From contig NZ_WBKR01000009.1 in NCBI RefSeq assembly GCF_008868155.1, positions 1-64,000 on the forward strand: DNA of 64,000 bases. Reading direction: 5' to 3'. The translations under genes and the position numbers were made by a program. Under the pieces are notes generated by a model, which was given only the letters and a program-made list of their open reading frames with translations, was not told the origin of the DNA and searched no databases. This document shows positions 26,658 to 40,214 of this stretch, piece after piece; the stretch's first letter is position 1, and each line of letters starts with the position of its first letter. The stretch comes from Micromonospora sp. ALFpr18c (GTDB taxonomy: Bacteria; Actinomycetota; Actinomycetes; Mycobacteriales; Micromonosporaceae).

Positions 26658-30314
<3,657 letters not shown>

Positions 30315-30376
30315 GCAGCCTCCCCGCTCCGGCCGTACCCCTCAGCCGTTGATCTCCACCCGCTGTGCTCCGACTT

Positions 30377-30402
30377 GTACCCCAACGGACCAGCAACGTA
30401 AC
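30377..30402 (-). promoter_or_regulatory. Candidate alternative-sigma (SigB/SigF-like) promoter
   Basis: On the minus strand GTTAC (30398-30402) and GGGTAC (30377-30382) are separated by 15 bases, close to the GTTT-N14/15-GGGTA pattern of stress sigma factors. It lies about 60 bases upstream of the multidomain kinase/phosphatase gene. Confidence 0.35.
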
Positions 30403-30508
30403 GCGTACCGTTCCTCGGACGCTGATTATCTCCACCCCATCCGTCGGTGAGCCGCGGTCGGAGTGGGCGGCGGCGGCCGGGCCGGTGGCGCCGCGGTGCC
30501 CGGCCAGG

Positions 30509-31060
30509 TCAGAAGACGGGCAGTCCGTCGATGCTCGCCGCGTTCTTGGTGGCCCGGTAGACCACCAGGTCATCGGCGGTACGACGGGAGTGTGAGCTGA
30601 GCAACAGGTCGCGTTCGGCGCGGTAGTCCATCAGCGGCACCGCATAGCCGCAGGAGTCGCTGACCCGCTCGACGTCGACGGTGATCACGGCCCGCACCGC
30701 GTGCACGTCCGGTGGCGTGGGGAACTCGGCGAGCCGATCGACGAAGGCGTCCTCGGTCACCGCGACGCTGCTGCCCCGGCCGTGCAGCCGGACGATCTTC
30801 GGCGGCCCGTCGAAGGCGCAGAACATCAGCGTGATCCGGCCGTTGTCCCGCAGGTGGGCGATGGTCTCGGCGCCACTGCCGTGATAGTCGAGGTACGCCA
30901 CCCGGTGCGGACCGAGGATCACGAACGTGCCCCGCATGCCCTTCGGTGAGACGTTGACGTGCCCCTCGGCACCGGACGGTGCGGTCGCCACGAAGAAGAC
31001 CGGCTGGGCCGCGATGAAGTCCCGCAGCCGACCGTCGATCTCCAGATACACCGTGCCCAT
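30509..31060 (-). CDS. Pyridoxamine 5'-phosphate oxidase family flavoprotein
   Basis: A 183-residue split-barrel protein. The core FFVATAPSGAEGHVNVSPKG, then VAYLDYHGSGAETIAHLRDN and RITLMFCAFDGPPKIVRLHG are typical of the PNPOx-like FMN/F420-binding family. The ATG at 31060 has an optimal GGGAGGAT site. Substrate unknown. It lies between the stress regulator and the gamma-glutamyl cluster and does not clearly belong to either. Confidence 0.88.
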   Translation of the reverse strand: MGTVYLEIDGRLRDFIAAQPVFFVATAPSGAEGHVNVSPKGMRGTFVILGPHRVAYLDYHGSGAETIAHLRDNGRITLMFCAFDGPPKIVRLHGRGSSVAVTEDAFVDRLAEFPTPPDVHAVRAVITVDVERVSDSCGYAVPLMDYRAERDLLLSSHSRRTADDLVVYRATKNAASIDGLPVF

Positions 31061-31107
31061 GCGCCGATCCTCCCACCGCGCGTTCGCGCGGGCGGGGGCG
31101 ACGTACG

Positions 31108-31842
31108 TCACACCGGGCGCAGCGCCGCAGGTGCGGCCGCGACGACCGGCGGACGCCGGCCGGCCGCCTCGACCAGCGCGGCGATCGGACGCGGGTCCGA
31201 CTCGTTCTCCGGATGCCACTGCACACCGAGTACGAACGGCAGGGCCGGGTCCTCCACCGCCTCGATCACGCCGTCCGCCGCCCAACCGGTGACGGACAGT
31301 CGACCCGGATCGGCCACCGCCTGGTGGTGGTACGAGTTGACCCGGTCCACCCCGGCCAACACCGCCGCGGCGAGGCTGCCCGCCGCGAACCGCACCGCGT
31401 GGTCGCCGTAGACGCCGGGTGCCGGGCGGTGCTCGTCGTGACCGACCACGTCCGGCAGGTGCTGGTGCAGGGCACCGCCGTAGGCGACGGCGAGCAGCTG
31501 CATACCCCGGCAGACACCGAGCACCGGCAACCCGGCGGCGAGCGCGGCGGCCAGCAGGGTCAGTTCACCGGCGTCCCGGTCCGGCCGGTCCTCGGTACGC
31601 GGATGCGGTGGCTGGCCGTACCGCCCCGGGCCCACGTCGGCACCCCCGGCCAGCAGCAGCCCGTCGAGGACGGCCACCACGTCGGCGTCCTGGTCGTCCG
31701 GAGGCACCACCACCGCCCGGCCGCCGGCGGCGGTCACCGCCCGCACGTACGCCTGCGGCACCAGCACGGCCGGCACGCCCCGCCAGACCGCCCAGTCGGC
31801 CGGCTCGACGTACGCGCTGATCCCGATCAGCGGCCGCCTCAC
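31108..31842 (-). CDS. Class I glutamine amidotransferase-like gamma-glutamyl hydrolase (PuuD-like)
   Basis: A 244-residue protein of the gamma-glutamyl-GABA hydrolase family. The nucleophile Cys is in PVLGVCRGMQLLAVAYGG, the catalytic His in GVQWHPENE, and the DGLLLAGGADVGPGRYG block is family specific. It would free glutamate from a gamma-glutamylated acid, the last step of the pathway encoded with its neighbours. GTG 31842 overlaps the SDR stop by four bases; the open frame continuing upstream is antisense-like noise. Confidence 0.9.
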   Translation of the reverse strand: MRRPLIGISAYVEPADWAVWRGVPAVLVPQAYVRAVTAAGGRAVVVPPDDQDADVVAVLDGLLLAGGADVGPGRYGQPPHPRTEDRPDRDAGELTLLAAALAAGLPVLGVCRGMQLLAVAYGGALHQHLPDVVGHDEHRPAPGVYGDHAVRFAAGSLAAAVLAGVDRVNSYHHQAVADPGRLSVTGWAADGVIEAVEDPALPFVLGVQWHPENESDPRPIAALVEAAGRRPPVVAAAPAALRPV

Positions 31843-32615
31843 AGCGGGGTGACGTACGCGCCCGTGATGCCGCCGTCGACCACGAACTGCGCGGCGGTCA
31901 TGAACGAGGCGTCGTCGCTGGCCAGGAACGCCACCGCGGCGGCGATCTCCTCCGGCTGTCCGAACCGTCCCATCGGCACGTGCACCAGCCGACGGGCGGC
32001 CCGCTCCGGGTCGGCGGCGAACAGCTCCAGCAGCAGCGGGGTCGCCACCGGCCCGGGGCAGAGCGCGTTGACCCGGATGCCCTCGCGGGCGAACTGCACA
32101 CCCAGCTCGCGGGTCATCGCCAGCACCCCGCCCTTGCTGGCGGTGTACGCGATCTGCGACGTCGCGGCACCCATCAACGCCACGAACGAGGCGGTGTTGA
32201 TGATCGACCCCTTGCCCTGCCGGCGCATGTGCGGGATCGCGTACTTGCAGCAGAGGTAGACGCTCGTGGTGTTGACCCGCAGCACCCGCTCCCAGGCGTC
32301 GAGGCCGGTGTCCAGGATGGAGTCGTCGTCCGGCGGCGAGATGCCGGCGTTGTTGAACGCGATGTCCACCCGGCCGTGCCGGTCGGCCACCCCGTCGAAC
32401 AGGTCGCGTACCGCCGACTCGTCGGCCACGTCGGTGGACACGAACTCGCCGCCGCACTTCTCGGCGGCCTTCGTACCGGCCACCTCGTCGATGTCCACGC
32501 AGACGACCCGGGCCCCCTCGGCGGCGAACCGCCGCACGGTGGCCAACCCGATGCCGCTGCCCGCTCCGGTGACCACGGCCACCCGGTCCTGCAACCGACC
32601 CTGCACTGGCGTCAC
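31839..32615 (-). CDS. SDR family oxidoreductase
   Basis: A classical 258-residue short-chain dehydrogenase. Cofactor loop VVTGAGSGIGLATV, an Asp after the second strand (CVDID) that favours NAD over NADP, NNAG, catalytic Ser in NTASF, and YTASK. The C-terminal FVVDGGITGAYV is typical of 3-oxoacyl-ACP-reductase-like SDRs. In this cluster it sits where Puu pathways have the FAD oxidase PuuB, so it may oxidise the hydroxyl group of a gamma-glutamylated amino alcohol. Overlaps the flanking genes by four bases at both ends. Confidence 0.92.
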   Translation of the reverse strand: MTPVQGRLQDRVAVVTGAGSGIGLATVRRFAAEGARVVCVDIDEVAGTKAAEKCGGEFVSTDVADESAVRDLFDGVADRHGRVDIAFNNAGISPPDDDSILDTGLDAWERVLRVNTTSVYLCCKYAIPHMRRQGKGSIINTASFVALMGAATSQIAYTASKGGVLAMTRELGVQFAREGIRVNALCPGPVATPLLLELFAADPERAARRLVHVPMGRFGQPEEIAAAVAFLASDDASFMTAAQFVVDGGITGAYVTPL

Positions 32616-33976
32616 TCCTCCGTCGCGATGAACACGTTCTTGACGTCCGTGAAGGAGTGCAGAGCGTCGGGGCCCAGCTCACGGCCGAGCCCGGAACGCT
32701 TCATCCCACCGAACGGGGTCCAGTAGCGCACCGAGGAGTGCGAGTTGACGCTGAGGTTGCCCGACTCGACGGCGCGGGCGAGCCGGAGGGCGCGGCCCAC
32801 GTCCCGGGTCCAGATCGAGCCGGAAAGGCCGTACTCGGTGTCGTTGGCGAGCCGGATCGCGTCGGCCTCGTCGTCGAAGGGGAGCACCGAGACCACCGGG
32901 CCGAAGATCTCCTCCCGCCAGTGCCGGTCGGCCGGCGAGTCGGCCAGCAGCACGGTCGGCGCGTGCCAGAAACCGGGGCCGTCGGGGCAGGACCCGGTGA
33001 ACGCGACCTTCGCCCCGGTCACGTACCCGGCGACCCGGTCGCGCTGCGCGGCGGAGATCAGCGGCCCCATCTCGGCGGTGTCCCGGCCCGGGTCCTCCAC
33101 CCGTACCGCCCGGACCGCCGGTTCGAGCAGTTCCAGGAAGCGGTCGTACACCGGGCGTTGGACGAGGATCCGCGACCGTGCGCAGCAGTCCTGGCCGGCG
33201 TTGTCGAAGACCGCGCCGGGCGCGGTCGCGGCGGCGCGTTCCAGGTCGGCGTCGGCGAAGACGATGTTCGCGCTCTTGCCGCCCAACTCCAGGGTGAGCC
33301 GCTTCACCTGGGTGGCGCAGCCGGCCATGATGCGCGTGCCGACCGCGGTGGAGCCGGTGAAGCAGATCTTGCGGACCGCTGGGTGGCTGACGAACCGCTC
33401 CCCCACCACCGCGCCCTCGCCCGGCAGCACGGTGAACACGTCGTCGGGCAGGCCGGCCTCGCGGGCCAACTCGGCCAGGCGCAGTGCGGTGAGGGGGGTC
33501 AGCTCGGCGGGTTTGAGCACCACGGTGTTGCCGGCCGCGAGGGCCGGGGCGAACCCCCAGCCGGCGATCGGCATGGGGAAGTTCCACGGCACGATCACCC
33601 CGACCACGCCGAGTGGCTCGTGGAAGGTGACGTCCAGCCCGCCGGGCACCGGGATCTGCCGCCCGGTCAGCCGCTCCGGCGCTCCGGCGTAGTAGTCCAG
33701 CACGTCGCGGACGTTGCCGGCCTCCCAGCGGGCGTTGCCGATCGTGTGCCCCGAGTTGCGCACCTCCAGCGCGGCCAGCTCGTCGAGATGCGCGTCGACA
33801 ACGGACGCGAACCGCCGCAGCAACCGAGCCCGGTCCCCCGGAGCGACCCCCCGCCAACTCTCGAAAGCACGAGAAGCCCGCGCGATGACGGAGTCGACCT
33901 CGTCCACCGAGGCCGCAGCAACCTCCAGAAACCCCACCCCACGAGCGGGATCCACCAGAACCGTCACACGCCCCAC
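32612..33976 (-). CDS. Aldehyde dehydrogenase (NAD-dependent)
   Basis: A 454-residue ALDH. Conserved parts: VVPWNFPMPIAGWGFAPALA (NAD site, catalytic-support Asn), CFTGSTAVG, the general base Glu in LTLELGGKSANIVF, catalytic Cys in NAGQDCCARSRI, and EIFGPVVSVLPF. It matches the gamma-glutamyl-aldehyde dehydrogenase (PuuC-like) members of such clusters. The start could be GTG 33976 or GTG 33967; the latter has better GAGGGGG spacing. It is separated from the upstream ligase gene by a long inverted repeat and overlaps the SDR gene. Confidence 0.92.
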   Translation of the reverse strand: MGRVTVLVDPARGVGFLEVAAASVDEVDSVIARASRAFESWRGVAPGDRARLLRRFASVVDAHLDELAALEVRNSGHTIGNARWEAGNVRDVLDYYAGAPERLTGRQIPVPGGLDVTFHEPLGVVGVIVPWNFPMPIAGWGFAPALAAGNTVVLKPAELTPLTALRLAELAREAGLPDDVFTVLPGEGAVVGERFVSHPAVRKICFTGSTAVGTRIMAGCATQVKRLTLELGGKSANIVFADADLERAAATAPGAVFDNAGQDCCARSRILVQRPVYDRFLELLEPAVRAVRVEDPGRDTAEMGPLISAAQRDRVAGYVTGAKVAFTGSCPDGPGFWHAPTVLLADSPADRHWREEIFGPVVSVLPFDDEADAIRLANDTEYGLSGSIWTRDVGRALRLARAVESGNLSVNSHSSVRYWTPFGGMKRSGLGRELGPDALHSFTDVKNVFIATEE

Positions 33977-33990
33977 CCCCTCTTCACCCG

Positions 33991-34065
33991 GTCGATCATG
34001 GAGTTGTGGTGCCCCACAAAAGCCGCCTCACGCTACTCTCCGCCCACCACAACTTCATGATCGAC
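33991..34065. repeat. Inverted repeat with GTCGATCA ends, between ligase and ALDH genes
   Basis: Left arm at 33991-34011 starts GTCGATCATGGAGTTGTGGT; the right arm at 34045-34065 is its complement with one mismatch in 21. The loop is 33 bases. It follows the glutamine-synthetase-like gene by 25 bases on the minus strand and may attenuate transcription into the ALDH-SDR-hydrolase genes. Confidence 0.65.
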
Positions 34066-34090
34066 GCGGTGAGGGGTGGGGACGGAGGGG

Positions 34091-35455
34091 TCAGAGGCGC
34101 TCGAAACCACGGGTCAGCTCCCAGTCCGTCACCGCGGCGTCGAACGCCGTCAACTCCACTCTCGCCTGGTTGGCGTAGTGCGCCACCACCTCGTCGCCGA
34201 ACGCCTCCCGGGCCACCGTCGACGCCTCCCACAGGGCGAGGGCGTCGCGCAGGGTGCCGGGGACGCGCTCGGCCTCCGGGTCGTCGTACGCGTTGCCGGT
34301 GCACTCCCCGTCCAGCTCCAGCTCCCGGTCGATGCCGTGCAGCGCGCCGGCGACCAGCCCGGCGATTGCCAGGTACGGGTTGACGTCGGCGCCGGGCACC
34401 CGGTTCTCCACCCGCATGCCCTGCCCGTGCCCGACCACCCGCAGCGCGCAGGTGCGGTTGTCCACACCCCAGCGCAACGCCGTCGGGGCGAACGACCCCG
34501 GCTGGTAGCGCTTGTAGGAGTTGATGTTCGGGGCGAAGAGCAGGCTGAACTCCCGCATGGTGGCGAGCAGACCGGCGAGCACCCGCTGCCCGGTCTGCGA
34601 CAGGCGCGCCGGCCCGTCACCGAGCATCGCCGACGAGCCCGACAAGTCCCGCAACGAGAAGTGGATGTGGCAGGAGTTGCCCTCCCGCTCGTTCGGCTTG
34701 GCCATGAAGGTGATCGCCATGCCCTCCTGGGCGGCGATCTCCTTGGCGCCGTTCTTGTAGATCACGTGGTGGTCGGCGCAGGCGACCGCCTCGTCGTACC
34801 GGAAGGCGATCTCGTGCTGGCCCAGGTTGCACTCGCCCTTGGCGCTCTCCGGGGTCAGCCCGGCGCCGGCCATCTCGGTGCGGATCCGGCGCAGCAGCGG
34901 CTCGACCCGGGCGGTGCCGAGCAGGGAGTAGTCCACGTTGTACTGGTTGGCCGGGGTGAGATCGCGGTAGCCACGCCGCCAGGCGTCCTCGTACGAGTCG
35001 CGGAACAGCACGAACTCCAGCTCGGTGCCGGCGTACGCGGTGAGCCCGTGCTCGGCCAGCCGGTCCAGTTGCCGGCGCAGGATCTGCCGGGGTGAGGCGA
35101 CCACGTCACCGGAGCCGTCCAGCCAGGTCAGGTCTGCCAGGAGCAGCGCGGAACCGGGCTGCCAGGGCGTCCGCCGCAGCGTGTCGAAGTCCGGCACCAT
35201 CGCGAAGTCGCCGTAGCCGCGGTCCCAGCTCGACATCGCGTACCCGTCGACGGTGTTCATGTCGACGTCCACGGCGAGCAGGTAGTTGCACCCCTCGCTG
35301 CCGTTGGCCACCACCTGGTCGAGGAAGTACGGCGCGTGGAATCGTTTGCCCTGGAGGCGGCCCTGCATGTCGACAAGGGCCAGCACCACCGTGTCGATCT
35401 CGCCCTCGGCGACGGCGACCCGCAGTTGTTCCAGCGTGAGCGGAGCTCTTCTCAT
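34091..35455 (-). CDS. Glutamine synthetase-like gamma-glutamyl-amine ligase (GlnA3/GlnA4 type)
   Basis: A 454-residue GS-fold ligase. The family blocks are present: LALVDMQGRLQGKRF, then TELEFVLFRDSYEDAW, CNLGQHEIAFRYDEA, GNSCHIHFSL, and RVPGADVNPYLAIAGLVAG. It lacks the tyrosine adenylylation loop and reads like the polyamine/ethanolamine ligases (GlnA3, GlnA4) of Streptomyces rather than true GlnA. It would glutamylate an amine with ATP as the first catabolic step. ATG 35455 has GGAGG seven bases upstream. It follows the permease gene by 109 bases. Confidence 0.88.
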   Translation of the reverse strand: MRRAPLTLEQLRVAVAEGEIDTVVLALVDMQGRLQGKRFHAPYFLDQVVANGSEGCNYLLAVDVDMNTVDGYAMSSWDRGYGDFAMVPDFDTLRRTPWQPGSALLLADLTWLDGSGDVVASPRQILRRQLDRLAEHGLTAYAGTELEFVLFRDSYEDAWRRGYRDLTPANQYNVDYSLLGTARVEPLLRRIRTEMAGAGLTPESAKGECNLGQHEIAFRYDEAVACADHHVIYKNGAKEIAAQEGMAITFMAKPNEREGNSCHIHFSLRDLSGSSAMLGDGPARLSQTGQRVLAGLLATMREFSLLFAPNINSYKRYQPGSFAPTALRWGVDNRTCALRVVGHGQGMRVENRVPGADVNPYLAIAGLVAGALHGIDRELELDGECTGNAYDDPEAERVPGTLRDALALWEASTVAREAFGDEVVAHYANQARVELTAFDAAVTDWELTRGFERL

Positions 35456-35564
35456 TCGCGGGCCTCCATCACCAAGGTCTACTGGCAAACCGGATCACCG
35501 TCAATGCCCCCGGCGCGGTCGGCGGCAAACCACGGTGGGATCCGCGCGACCCTGATCGACCCCG

Positions 35565-37151
35565 TCAGTCCGGTCCGTCGACCGCCGCCGGCTGAGACTC
35601 GACGGTCGGGTCCTCGACGGTGCGGACCGGGCCGGTAAACCACTTGCGGGCCGAGGCGTACCACCAGACGGCGACCACCAGCAGCACCCCGCCCACGGCG
35701 AGCGGCGCGTAGTTCACCGCCGACCAGGTGAAGTCGTCGCTGCCGGGCACCCCGGCGGGCACGATCGGCAGCACGAAGTAGACCGCGATGATCGCGATCT
35801 CGATGACCGCGATCCAGCCGAGCAGTTTGTACTTCCGCCCGAGGGTCCACGGGCCGGGGGTGAACCGGTCACCCATTCGCAGTCGCAGCGCGATCGGGAT
35901 GAGGAAGGACAGGTAGAGCCCGAGCACCGCGACGGACACCACCGCGTAGAACGCGATCGGGATGCCGGCGGAGCTCTCGTACAGCGCCGGCAAAGTGAGC
36001 ACCAGACCGGCCACGGTGGCGCCGATGATCGCCTTGACCGGGGTGCCGTTGCGGTCGACCGAGGACCACAACCGCCAGCCGGGGACCGCCCGGTCGCGGC
36101 TGAACGCGTACGCCATCCGGCTCATCGAGGTCACGCAGCTCATTCCGCAGAAGAACTGCCCGATGGTGGAGATGATGATGACGATCTTGAAGAAGACCGG
36201 GGTGAGCGCGGACTCGAAGATGGCACCGGAGAAGCCGCCGGCCGCGTTGACCGCCTCGACGTCGGTGGCCGCGAACAGGAACGCCAGCAGCAGGATCCAG
36301 CCGCCGACCGCCGAGTAGAAGATCGACTGCCAGAGCCCTCGGGCGGCGGCCTGCGAGGCGCCCCGGGTCTCCTCGGAGACGTGCGCGCAGGCGTCGAAGC
36401 CGGTGATCGTGTACTGGGTCAGCAGGAAGCCCAGCGGCAGCACGTAGAACCAGAACGTCAGCCCGCCGACGTCGCCATCACCGAAGCCGGAGTTGTTGAA
36501 CCGCTCGGTGAACACGAACTGGAAGCTCTGGTGGTTGTCCGGGACGAAGACCAGGATGGCCACCACGACGGCCGCGCCGGCCACGTGCCACCAGACCGAG
36601 ACATTCTGGAGTACGTCGATGATCCGGTGCCCGAAGATGTTGATCAGACCGTGCAGCACCAGGATGATCACGAAGAGCAGGAAGGCCTGGCGTAGCGTCC
36701 CCGCCCAGCCGTCGAACAGCGCCGACAGGGTGAGGTTGAGAAACGTCGCGCACCCGTAGTCGACCGAGGCGGTGACCGCGACCAGGCCGATCAGGTTGAG
36801 CCAGCCGGTGAACCAGCCGTGCACCGGCCGACCCATGGTCGCCGCCCACCAGTAGATCCCGCCCGCGGTGGGGTACGCCGACACCAGCTCCGCCATGCAG
36901 AAGCCGATGATCAAGATGAACAGCGAGATCAGCGGCCAGCCCCAGGAGATGGCGACCGGTCCACCGTTGTTCCACGCCTGCCCGAAGGTGGTGAAACAGC
37001 CGGCCAGGATCGAAATGATCGAGAACGAGATGGCGAAGTTGGAGAAGCCGCTCCACTTGCGGCGCAGCTCCTGCTTGTAGCCGAGTTCGGCGAGCCGTCG
37101 GGCATCGTCGTCCATCGGCTGCTCGGCGGTCGGCACGGGCGTCGTGGCCAC
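35565..37151 (-). CDS. APC family amino acid/amine permease
   Basis: A 528-residue permease with 12 predicted helices. The start region LGYKQELRRKWSGFSNFAISFSIISI, then GWPLISLFILIIGFCMAELVSAYPTAGGIYWW and GFDACAHVSEETRGAS are typical of the GabP/UGA4-like (ACT/BAT) branch of the APC superfamily that transports GABA, choline, polyamines or related amines. GTG 37151 has an AGGGAGGT site; the frame further upstream is not permease-like. It is the first gene of the gamma-glutamylation cluster, so it likely imports the amine that the cluster degrades. Confidence 0.92.
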   Translation of the reverse strand: MATTPVPTAEQPMDDDARRLAELGYKQELRRKWSGFSNFAISFSIISILAGCFTTFGQAWNNGGPVAISWGWPLISLFILIIGFCMAELVSAYPTAGGIYWWAATMGRPVHGWFTGWLNLIGLVAVTASVDYGCATFLNLTLSALFDGWAGTLRQAFLLFVIILVLHGLINIFGHRIIDVLQNVSVWWHVAGAAVVVAILVFVPDNHQSFQFVFTERFNNSGFGDGDVGGLTFWFYVLPLGFLLTQYTITGFDACAHVSEETRGASQAAARGLWQSIFYSAVGGWILLLAFLFAATDVEAVNAAGGFSGAIFESALTPVFFKIVIIISTIGQFFCGMSCVTSMSRMAYAFSRDRAVPGWRLWSSVDRNGTPVKAIIGATVAGLVLTLPALYESSAGIPIAFYAVVSVAVLGLYLSFLIPIALRLRMGDRFTPGPWTLGRKYKLLGWIAVIEIAIIAVYFVLPIVPAGVPGSDDFTWSAVNYAPLAVGGVLLVVAVWWYASARKWFTGPVRTVEDPTVESQPAAVDGPD

Positions 37152-37190
37152 TGCACACCTCCCTGAGGGATTCCGCGTACGAGTGCGCAA

Positions 37191-37220
37191 AGTGTCGTCC
37201 CGCCGATCAAGGGCGGTCAA
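37191..37220 (-). promoter_or_regulatory. Candidate promoter of the permease/gamma-glutamylation cluster
   Basis: On the minus strand TTGACC (37215-37220) and GACACT (37191-37196) are spaced by 18 bases, a good housekeeping-sigma-like pair. The predicted transcription start is about 35 bases before the permease GTG. Confidence 0.55.
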
Positions 37221-37413
37221 TACGGTGCGGGTGGGAATCTCACCGCCGCCGGGCTAATTGCGTTGCCGCGCGCGCCCGCCGGCCCCATCCTTGAGCCTGT
37301 GACCAGCCCGTTCGCGACGGGCCTACCCGGGCACTCGGACCGCCCGGACCGCGGCGGCGCGGGGCACACCTTCCTCTCTCACGGGCCGGTGCCCCGCGCC
37401 CCCATCTCCGCGG

Positions 37414-37469
37414 TGATCAAGAGGTTCGCGTCACGCGGGGCGCGAATTCTGACGCAAACCTCTTGATCA
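37414..37469. terminator. Inverted repeat with TGATCA ends after the DUF456 gene
   Basis: Left arm TGATCAAGAGGTTCGCGTCA (37414-37433) and right arm 37450-37469 pair at 19 of 20 positions across a 16-base loop. It begins 23 bases after the DUF456 stop on the minus strand. The arms resemble those of the element at 12605-12646. The rest of the 341-base space (37152-37492) holds the permease promoter and no gene. Confidence 0.65.
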
Positions 37470-37492
37470 GCGGAGGAAGGGCTCGCGGGAGG

Positions 37493-37993
37493 TCAGAGCA
37501 GGAGGAGGCCGGTCACCCAGGCGGCGGCGATCAGCAGGCCGGCGGTGAACTCGACAAGCATGGACAGGCCGGCGGCCTTGAGCGCCTGCACCGTGGACGG
37601 CCAGGCCAACTGGTTGCTGCCCAGGCGCAGCCGCTCCGCCGCCCACACCCCGACGACGAAGCCGAGCAGCAGCCCCACCACCGGGATCACGAAGAACCCG
37701 ACGATGCCGAGCACCGCGCCGGCGAGCAGCGTCGACGTGGGCACGCCGGTGCGCTTCAGGTTGCGACCGGGCCAGGCGTACTTGACCACCGTGCCGCCGG
37801 CGGCGACCAGCGTCGCGGCGGCGAACACCACCCACCCACCCGGGCCGGCGCCGCCGAAGATCGCCCAGACGAGCACCCCGCCCCAGCACAGCGGCAGCGC
37901 CGGCAGGCCGGGCACCACCACGCCGGCCAGCCCGGCCAGGATGGCCAACGCGGCCACCACGGTCACCACCGTCTGCGAGTCGTTCAGGCTCAC
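37493..37993 (-). CDS. DUF456 domain membrane protein
   Basis: A 166-residue protein with five or so hydrophobic segments, e.g. TVVTVVAALAILAGLAGVVV and AVLGIVGFFVIPVVGLLLGF, in the Gly-rich style of DUF456. The motif PGLPALPLCWGG near residue 30 is family-typical. GTG 37993 has AAAGG upstream. Function unknown; possibly a small channel or scaffold. It stands alone between an upstream GGDEF/EAL gene (64 bases away) and the inverted repeat. Confidence 0.85.
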   Translation of the reverse strand: MSLNDSQTVVTVVAALAILAGLAGVVVPGLPALPLCWGGVLVWAIFGGAGPGGWVVFAAATLVAAGGTVVKYAWPGRNLKRTGVPTSTLLAGAVLGIVGFFVIPVVGLLLGFVVGVWAAERLRLGSNQLAWPSTVQALKAAGLSMLVEFTAGLLIAAAWVTGLLLL

Positions 37994-38057
37994 GCCGTCG
38001 CCTTTCGTCGCCACCATCGGGACCGTCCCGGACGCAACGATCCCCCGCGCGCACCCA

Positions 38058-40214
38058 TCACGCCGCCCCGCCACGCAGCCGGGCGGTGATCGTCTCGGCC
38101 GGCGACGGCGCGCCGAAATACCGGCCCTGCCCGGTGTCGCACCGCAGCGCCCGTAGCCGCTCGGCCTGCACCCCGGTCTCCACCGCCTCGGCGGTGACCC
38201 ACAGCTCCAGGGCGTGGGCCAACCGCACCAACGCGTCGACGATCCGCTCGTCGCGGTGATCGGCCGCCACATCCGTACCGTCGGCGCGGATGCCCTCGAC
38301 GAACGGGCCGGCCAGCTTCAGGCAGTGGATCGGCAGCCGCCGCAGGTACGCCAGGTTGGAGTAGCCGGTGCCGAAGTCGTCCACCGCCAGTCGGACGCCC
38401 AGGTCGGCGAGCCGGTGCAGGCTGCGCAGCGGCTCACCGGCGCTGCCCATCACGGCGCTCTCGGTCAGCTCCAGTTGCAGCAGTTCCTCGGGCAACCCGC
38501 TGGTGGCCAGCGCGTCGGCCACGGTGTCCACGATCGCGGGGTCGTCGGCCTGCCGGGCCGCCAGGTTGACGCTGACCACCAGTCGGGCGTCGGGGAACTC
38601 CCGCCACCACCGTTCGGCGTCGCGGCACGCGGTGCGCAGCACCCACTCGCCGAGCCCGACGATCAGGCCGGTCTCCTCGGCGAGGCCGATGAACCGGTCC
38701 GGCCCGATCAGGCCCAGCTCGGGGTGCTTCCACCGGACCAGCGCCTCCACCGCGAGCATGCGGCCCTCCAGCAGCGACACGATCGGCTGGTAGTGCAGCA
38801 CGAACTCGCCCCGCTCCAGGGCCGCCGGCAGCCCGGCGACCAGCGCCGCCCGGGCCATGTCCCGTGCGCTGCGCTCCGGGTCGTAGACCGCCCACCGGCC
38901 CCGACCCGCCGCCTTGGCCCAGTACAGCGTCGTGTCGGCGGCCTTCATCAACTCCGAGGCGCTGGTCTCCGCGACCGGGCACTCCACGATGCCCACGCTG
39001 GCCGAGACCGCCAACTGCTGGTCACCGACGTGCACCGGGGCGGCGACGGCAGCGAGGGCCGTCTTCGCCACGGCCACCGCGTCCTCACCGCCGTCGACCA
39101 GGATCACGAACTCGTCGCCGCCCATCCGGGCGACCAGGTGGCCGTGGTCGGCCACACACTCGGCCAGCCGCCGGCCGATCATCACCAGCAGCCGGTCGCC
39201 GAGGTCGTGGCCGAGGCTGTCGTTGATCGCCTTGAACCCGTCCAGGTCGAGGAAGCACACCCCGACGCGGCGGTCCGCCGCCGCGGCGGCGTCGAGGACC
39301 CGGCCCAACGTCTCGAAGAACAGCGTCCGGTTGGGCAGCCCGGTCAGCGGGTCGTGCAGGGCCTGGAACCGCAGCCGCTGCTGGAGTTCGTACCGCTCGG
39401 TGATGTCCTCGATCATGGCAACGGTGAACCGGGGCCGGCCGTCGTCGTGCCGGATCAGCGAGACGGCCAGGTCCGTCCAGACCACGCTGCCGTCCTTGCG
39501 GTGGTAGCGCTTCTCCACCCGGGCCGCGTCCTGTTTGCCCTCGATGAGTTGCTGATACAGCTCCCACATGCCGGCGGCGTCGTCGGCGTGGAACAACGCC
39601 GCCACGTTGATCCGGCACAGTTCCTCGATCGAGTAGCCCAGCATGTCGGCGAACGCCTGGTTGACGTCGATGATCTGACCGTCCACCCCGGCGATGCCGA
39701 TCCCGATCGCCGCGCCGGTGAACACCGCCCGGAACCGTGCCTCGCTGTCCCGCAGCGCCTGCTCGACCTCGTCGCGCGCCTGCCAGGCCGACCGGGCGAT
39801 CCGTTCCTGCTGGGCGAAGGTGCGGTCCCGCAGCGCCCGGGCGTACCCGGCGGCCAGCCCACCCTGTACGGCCGCGATCCGCTCGGTCAGGTCCGCCGGC
39901 CACCCGTCGGCCGCCAGCACCCGGCGGGGGAAGTCCGTGCCGAGGGCACGCAACGACCATTCCAGTGCCCGAGGCTCGGTGAGATGGGCCTCCACCAGGG
40001 CGCGACCGACCTCCTCCGCGGGGCGGGCGGTGAACGGCTCCGTGCGCACCGCCTGCGCCAACCGGACGGTGTGCGCCAGCAGCAGCCGCTCGGTCTCGGC
40101 CGCGCTCAGCGGCACGAAACCGAGCCGGCGCACCGCACGGGCCCAGTCGGCGGCGTAGCCCTCGGCGCCGCCCCGGCCGACGTCGGCACCGATGGGATCC
40201 CCGACGGCGGCCAC
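38058..40214 (-). CDS. PAS-GGDEF-EAL cyclic-di-GMP signalling protein
   Basis: 718 residues from GTG 40214. An uncharacterised helical N-terminal region (1-150) is followed by PAS (about 155-280), diguanylate cyclase (RMGGDEFVI, GGDEF at 365-369) and EAL phosphodiesterase (EAL at 490-492, with NLAARQADD, LELTES, DDFGTGYSNLAYL). No RxxD inhibitory site precedes GGDEF. In the EAL domain the usual LKID is LKLA, so one acidic residue of the metal site is replaced; the catalytic Lys stays. The balance of synthesis and degradation of c-di-GMP is therefore uncertain. No membrane segments. It begins four bases after the methyltransferase stop, so the two are an operon. Confidence 0.93.
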   Translation of the reverse strand: MAAVGDPIGADVGRGGAEGYAADWARAVRRLGFVPLSAAETERLLLAHTVRLAQAVRTEPFTARPAEEVGRALVEAHLTEPRALEWSLRALGTDFPRRVLAADGWPADLTERIAAVQGGLAAGYARALRDRTFAQQERIARSAWQARDEVEQALRDSEARFRAVFTGAAIGIGIAGVDGQIIDVNQAFADMLGYSIEELCRINVAALFHADDAAGMWELYQQLIEGKQDAARVEKRYHRKDGSVVWTDLAVSLIRHDDGRPRFTVAMIEDITERYELQQRLRFQALHDPLTGLPNRTLFFETLGRVLDAAAAADRRVGVCFLDLDGFKAINDSLGHDLGDRLLVMIGRRLAECVADHGHLVARMGGDEFVILVDGGEDAVAVAKTALAAVAAPVHVGDQQLAVSASVGIVECPVAETSASELMKAADTTLYWAKAAGRGRWAVYDPERSARDMARAALVAGLPAALERGEFVLHYQPIVSLLEGRMLAVEALVRWKHPELGLIGPDRFIGLAEETGLIVGLGEWVLRTACRDAERWWREFPDARLVVSVNLAARQADDPAIVDTVADALATSGLPEELLQLELTESAVMGSAGEPLRSLHRLADLGVRLAVDDFGTGYSNLAYLRRLPIHCLKLAGPFVEGIRADGTDVAADHRDERIVDALVRLAHALELWVTAEAVETGVQAERLRALRCDTGQGRYFGAPSPAETITARLRGGAA

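Follow-up and report, generated by a model that had tools for sequence, protein, structure and literature searches.

The window analysed here, positions 1 to 64,000 of contig NZ_WBKR01000009.1 (part of contig C9 in our numbering) of the soil bacterium Micromonospora sp. ALFpr18c (6.7 Mb genome in 581 contigs), carries five consecutive minus-strand genes between positions 31108 and 37151, encoding a permease, a glutamine synthetase (GS)-like ligase, an aldehyde dehydrogenase (ALDH), a short-chain dehydrogenase (SDR) and a PuuD-like hydrolase. This order, reported in an earlier note made from the letters of the window, was borne out by the open reading frame coordinates and by Pfam searches, in which all five proteins scored far over the cut-off. 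The genes and their proposed roles are:

35565..37151, minus strand: APC-superfamily permease of 528 aa (PF13520, AA_permease_2, 196 bits), probable ethanolamine importer
34091..35455, minus strand: GS-like ligase of the GlnA4 type, 454 aa (PF00120, Gln-synt_C, 325 bits), probable gamma-glutamylethanolamide synthetase
32612..33976, minus strand: ALDH (PF00171, Aldedh, 518 bits; GTG start at 33976 or 33967), probable gamma-glutamylacetaldehyde dehydrogenase
31839..32615, minus strand: SDR (PF13561, adh_short_C2, 232 bits), probable NAD-dependent gamma-glutamylethanolamide dehydrogenase
31108..31842, minus strand: Peptidase C26/PuuD-like hydrolase (PF07722, Peptidase_C26, 200 bits), probable gamma-glutamylglycine hydrolase

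The ALDH/SDR and SDR/hydrolase junctions are 4-bp overlaps (GTGA), while 109 bp separate the permease from the ligase and 114 bp the ligase from the ALDH. We consider it likely, with good confidence, that this operon serves ethanolamine utilisation by gamma-glutamylation of the GlnA4 type. The amine would enter through the APC permease, and the ligase would join the gamma-carboxyl group of glutamate to ethanolamine in an ATP-driven reaction, as has been shown for GlnA4 of Streptomyces coelicolor. The SDR would oxidise this product, gamma-glutamylethanolamide, at its primary hydroxyl to give gamma-glutamylacetaldehyde, probably with NAD+ (a step that in S. coelicolor too is only predicted), the ALDH would form gamma-glutamylglycine and the C26 hydrolase would release glycine and glutamate, so that glutamate would be recovered and free acetaldehyde would not be formed. 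The earlier note had taken the glutamylated substrate to be an amino alcohol, a view that our analysis supports in the narrower wording of a primary amino alcohol, because an ALDH follows.

The scheme is already in print for Streptomyces (2019, PMC6529630). Purified S. coelicolor GlnA4 yields gamma-glutamylethanolamide, accepting ethanolamine specifically with a Km of 0.47 mM, and a delta-glnA4 strain was unable to use ethanolamine (PMC6529630). The same paper proposed that the dehydrogenase SCO1611 (a short-chain dehydrogenase according to its figure 2), the ALDH SCO1612 and the amidohydrolase SCO1615 act downstream of GlnA4, and its passages on these post-ligase steps present them as predictions in S. 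coelicolor as well; for SCO1615 the text gives the formylglutamate amidohydrolase family and the figure legend the name glutamine amidotransferase (PMC6529630). A literature search within one open-licence library returned no paper on a GlnA4 ethanolamine cluster in Micromonospora, nor any in which the SDR step was assayed for an actinobacterium. Rv2857c-Rv2860c of Mycobacterium tuberculosis presumably form a similar gene set, on which that search gave nothing relevant.

The genome contains five PF00120 matches, on C193, on C244, in the window ligase and as two weak matches on C4; since the latter two overlap, four GS homologues are present, and inspection by eye suggests that the C4 gene encodes a type II GS, with an ammonium-transporter-like gene downstream of it. 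Among the matches listed, the named proteins nearest to the window ligase come from Micromonospora (M. parva, 97%). As an anchor to the assayed enzyme, the PCR primers printed in PMC6529630 were searched in genomes. Among 392 genomes from a single genus, 12 contained the site of the forward glnA4 primer; at locus L099 (19.5 kb) of genome G533, seven of nine primers matched exactly and the other two with 1 and 2 mismatches, one of the exact matches (a cloning primer named for SCO1614) falling in the ALDH, and G533 is therefore S. coelicolor or a near relative. The window proteins share 70% (ligase), 76% (SDR), 69% (ALDH) and 50% (hydrolase) identity with the L099 copies, and no match to the window permease was found at L099. 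G533 holds five GS homologues, which we take, from gene order together with the tree, to be GlnA1, GlnA2, GlnA3, GlnA4 and GlnII.

In a 47-row ligase tree, some rows of which are partial, the window ligase fell inside a 12-row set (support 95/95) together with ten Streptomyces-family rows, including the GlnA4 of G533, and one row of its own genus. GlnA1, GlnA2, GlnA3 and E. coli PuuA lay outside a 40-row GlnA4-like set (support 91/84), the own places of GlnA3 and PuuA being unsure because their branches are very long, and the window ligase is 29–33% identical to GlnA1–3 and PuuA over parts of its length (PuuA 33%). Of 17 residues numbered in PMC6529630, the L099 protein has 15 at the stated positions, and the window ligase keeps 14 of these mappable 15, the exception being V189, which is replaced by L; this position varies across the 40 GlnA4-like rows (L 13, I 10, V 10, M 7). 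Its relatives in the Protein Data Bank (PDB) are 11zs (411 bits) and 5dm3 (379 bits). By its sequence, the window ligase belongs with GlnA4, apart from GlnA1–3 and PuuA, and the grouping, the 70% identity and the matching gene set together support the fit to the GlnA4 ethanolamine scheme that the earlier note had proposed.

The link between SDR and ligase was examined in 296 genomes of the phylum (ligase at ≥45% identity, SDR at E ≤ 1e-70): of the 81 genomes carrying the ligase, 72 contained the SDR, vs 1 of the 215 without it, an association whose Fisher p of 1.6e-57 serves as a pointer only, because the sampled genomes are related. A ligase on the same contig and no more than 10 kb away was found for 65 of 75 SDR places; conversely, an SDR lay within 10 kb of the ligase at 36/42 places of ≥60% identity, 29/43 of 45–60% and 0/9 below 45%. 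Some, though not all, of the ligase places lacking the SDR can be put down to drafts with short contigs. Among 36 members of each family, residues were counted as kept at ≥95%, as were N115, S143, Y157, K161 and D41 of the SDR, C264 and E230 of the ALDH (common to PuuC) and C113, H212 and E214 of the hydrolase (common to E. coli PuuD), the hydrolase scoring 90 bits on the PuuD model, below the cut-off of 266. A residue of the D41 type points to NAD over NADP, and its presence in the window SDR suggests NAD as the cofactor. The closest PDB relative noted for the SDR is 4wec (368 bits), and its NCBIfam match over cut-off, NF004713 (477 bits, cut-off 404), is named 3-oxoacyl-ACP reductase; this role was rejected, since its basis is the family name alone.

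Gene neighbourhoods were compared at 39 loci of other genomes, mostly the better ones of 94 ligase match places, and at a second set comprising the best 80 of at least 594 confirmed named loci, some of them cut by contig ends; one genome may sit in both sets (119 loci). ALDH, SDR and hydrolase were each found at 34 of the 39 loci, not always the same 34, and the arrangement is thus not due to chance. The named set gave similar genes at 72 (SDR), 72 (ALDH) and 59 (hydrolase) of its 80 loci. Two loci were observed to differ. At L058 (G128:C1:3065000-3084500), a second, 45% ligase homologue stands beside a window-type permease (41%), with ALDH, SDR and hydrolase matches absent from the locus, and this ligase may possibly act on a different amine. 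At L059 (G161:C2:277500-297000), in a Streptomyces-family genome, a second GlnA4-type ligase (66–67%) has its nearest SDR homologue 18 kb off.

The permease is one point of difference. The window protein scored 323 bits on TIGR00907 (cut-off 598) and 37 bits on the TIGR00908 ethanolamine permease model, vs a cut-off of 382, so that it is not of that type, and no PDB relative was found at 0.001. Nowhere in its own genome was TIGR00908 over cut-off (best 112.6 bits); the positive control is the Streptomyces-family locus L070 alone (482 bits), none of 14 control genomes scoring over cut-off. The window and L070 permeases share 26–27% identity over fragments, and we infer that the latter corresponds to orf4 of PMC6529630, where the permeases of GlnA4 clusters are stated not to be similar to Eat and the cluster permease gene is described as absent from S. 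coelicolor itself. Window-type permeases were found at 7 and TIGR00908-type permeases at 17 of the 39 loci, and at 48 and 4, respectively, of the 80 named loci, with no locus in either set carrying both; for the 39 loci the chance of zero overlap is 0.011, rising to 0.020 when L058, an incomplete locus, is left out (kinship uncorrected). That the two never occur together suggests, without proof, that they do the same job.

The regulator EpuRI is similarly scattered, being present at 15 of the 39 related loci and not at the window locus. In the named set an EpuRI-like gene was seen at all 3 Asanoa loci and at 3 of the 35 from Micromonospora; at five of these six it sits between permease and ligase, and its absence here may therefore be a loss. 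We accordingly treated the TIGR00908 permease and EpuRI as variable, non-defining traits of the actinobacterial GlnA4 cluster. It is conceivable, if somewhat doubtful, that the window permease is a hitherto undescribed ethanolamine importer (APC, TIGR00907-like; not EutH, of the TIGR00908 type or TRAP) which takes the place of the TIGR00908 type in the GlnA4 operons of several lineages, EpuRI control having been lost in this one.

Several of these observations count against an ethanolamine operon of the GlnA4 type. At the threshold applied, the SDR is missing from nine of the 81 genomes that have the ligase, and it was not within 10 kb at 14 of the 43 ligase places of 45–60% identity. Judged by model scores, the window permease falls outside the TIGR00908 type that is seen at Streptomyces loci, and no EpuRI orthologue was found in the genome (best match 32%, 41.7 bits). 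Electrophoretic mobility shift assays showed EpuRI binding to the promoter of glnA4 and to those of some genes associated with polyamines as well (PMC8998196), and the two systems are therefore in cross-talk in Streptomyces. The first alternative is that the operon acts, by the same chemistry, on one or more other primary amino alcohols such as alaninol or 3-aminopropanol. The amine is not fixed by sequence, the permease subfamily is unlike that at the Streptomyces loci and the pocket position V189, variable in the clade, is L here; however, S. coelicolor GlnA4 is reported to be ethanolamine-specific (PMC6529630), the window ligase shares with that enzyme 70% identity and the set of partner genes, and the permease slot is occupied by the TIGR00908 ethanolamine-permease type at 17 of the 39 related loci. 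We consider this alternative unlikely.

The second alternative, a Puu-type polyamine operon using a distant PuuB, is very improbable. The earlier note's statement that the cluster is without PuuB held, since an E. coli PuuB query of the whole genome matched six places, none of them on C9. The best of these lies at C247:2717-3928 (33%, 3.2e-34), and the five others are weak and partial. A PuuB homologue coregulated elsewhere had been named in that note as speaking against its reading, and this is half the case: the homologue exists and stands beside PotD/F-like transporter genes in the following operon.

L063:1386-8091 (contig C247 of the same genome): polyamine-like ABC operon, with a binding protein, an ABC ATPase, two permeases, the PuuB-like FAD oxidase and a saccharopine-dehydrogenase-like gene in a row, in this order

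Its binding protein scored 98 bits on the models for PotD (cut-off 582) and PotF (cut-off 636) alike, and the NCBIfam model that fits the oxidase best is that of a putative aminophosphonate oxidoreductase (240 bits against a cut-off of 633), so that, on these model scores, a polyamine role is likely and not certain. G533 holds a 62% copy of this homologue, which we take, from its map position, to be SCO5671. SCO5671 has been called a close PuuB orthologue (PMC8998196). Against a polyamine role for the window operon, PuuB, the FAD oxidase of this genome and iron-dependent dehydrogenases were found at none of the 39 loci (control loci L063 and L144 were detected) and at none of the best 80, so that the cluster is not normally paired with PuuB, a PuuE-like match occurring at one of the 39. 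The ligase, 33% identical to PuuA, scored 198 bits on the gamma-glutamylputrescine synthetase model vs a cut-off of 650. The genome moreover has a separate ligase on C244 that groups with GlnA2 in the tree. In S. coelicolor, polyamines are assigned to a ligase of this kind, and their use was unaltered by deletion of glnA4 (PMC8998196).

The last alternative, in which oxidation of the glutamylated alcohol falls to another enzyme and the SDR is an unrelated passenger (for example a 3-oxoacyl-ACP reductase), draws on the name of NF004713 and on the lack of an SDR-step assay from an actinobacterium in the library searched, but is hardly credible given that the SDR co-occurs with and adjoins the ligase across genomes, overlaps both ALDH and hydrolase by 4 bp, and that the iron-dependent dehydrogenase class listed for Chromohalobacter salexigens (PMC9397018) occurs at none of the 119 loci. 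An ethanolamine ammonia-lyase route was also rejected, as the genome gave no EutB (PF06751) match while the E. coli control was found.

Further features lie in and around the operon, among them one that fills the space between ligase and ALDH:

33976..34080, no strand assigned: inverted repeat filling the GS-ALDH gap, arms of 36 nt, 83% complementary and 33 nt apart

In this element the 18-nt arms (GATCATGnAGTTGTGGTG) are conserved, while the 33-nt loop varies in sequence. At ≤1 mismatch the genome holds 25 forward and 25 reverse arm sites (reversed-pattern control 0), spaced 51 bp apart in 19 of 20 element copies read, and in a sample of 61 genomes of the family three have the exact palindrome. 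It is found in the same gap in genome G204 and at 8 of 28 named Micromonospora/Verrucosispora loci among the best 80, and is one copy of a dispersed palindrome that probably has no part in the pathway. Two Rfam mir-67 matches on it, from a search of 30000-38500 at E ≤ 1, fell below the gathering score and were taken as chance. A second inverted repeat (37411-37472; arms 23 nt, 91% complementary, 16 nt apart) lies upstream of the permease, and a PNPOx-like gene (30509-31060; PF01243, 42 bits) follows on the same strand about 47 bp past the hydrolase and may be co-transcribed.

An ethanolamine operon of the GlnA4 type at this locus extends the route to Micromonospora and its relatives, names a candidate new importer and gives comparative support for SDR oxidation of gamma-glutamylethanolamide, a step assigned in Proteobacteria to an unrelated iron-dependent dehydrogenase. 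The window operon is an ordinary member of the pathway described in Streptomyces, with a different importer and no neighbouring regulator. It shares with the S. coelicolor SCO1610-SCO1615 cluster an orthologous ligase, SDR, ALDH and hydrolase and the same proposed chemistry (PMC6529630), with the SDR and ALDH adjoining the ligase here and the C26 hydrolase also at the locus. It differs in having a permease of another APC subfamily, in lacking EpuRI, and in gene orientation, the five genes here sharing one strand where the Streptomyces clusters have their hydrolase and regulator reversed. The proteobacterial gamma-glutamylethanolamide route of C. salexigens and Phaeobacter (PMC9397018, PMC10132767) has the same GS-type ligase, ALDH and intermediates; however, C. 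salexigens is described with an iron-dependent dehydrogenase of family PF00465 and a hydrolase of family PF05013 (PMC9397018) in place of the SDR and PF07722 protein, and Phaeobacter with a TRAP importer (PMC10132767) in place of the APC permease. With the eut pathway the window route has the presumed substrate in common, but not the lyase step. The E. coli Puu pathway likewise combines a GS-type ligase, an ALDH and a C26 hydrolase in a glutamylate-oxidise-hydrolyse logic, but the window locus has neither PuuB nor PuuE, its ligase and hydrolase score under the PuuA and PuuD cut-offs (198/650 and 90/266 bits), and an SDR stands where the oxidase would be.

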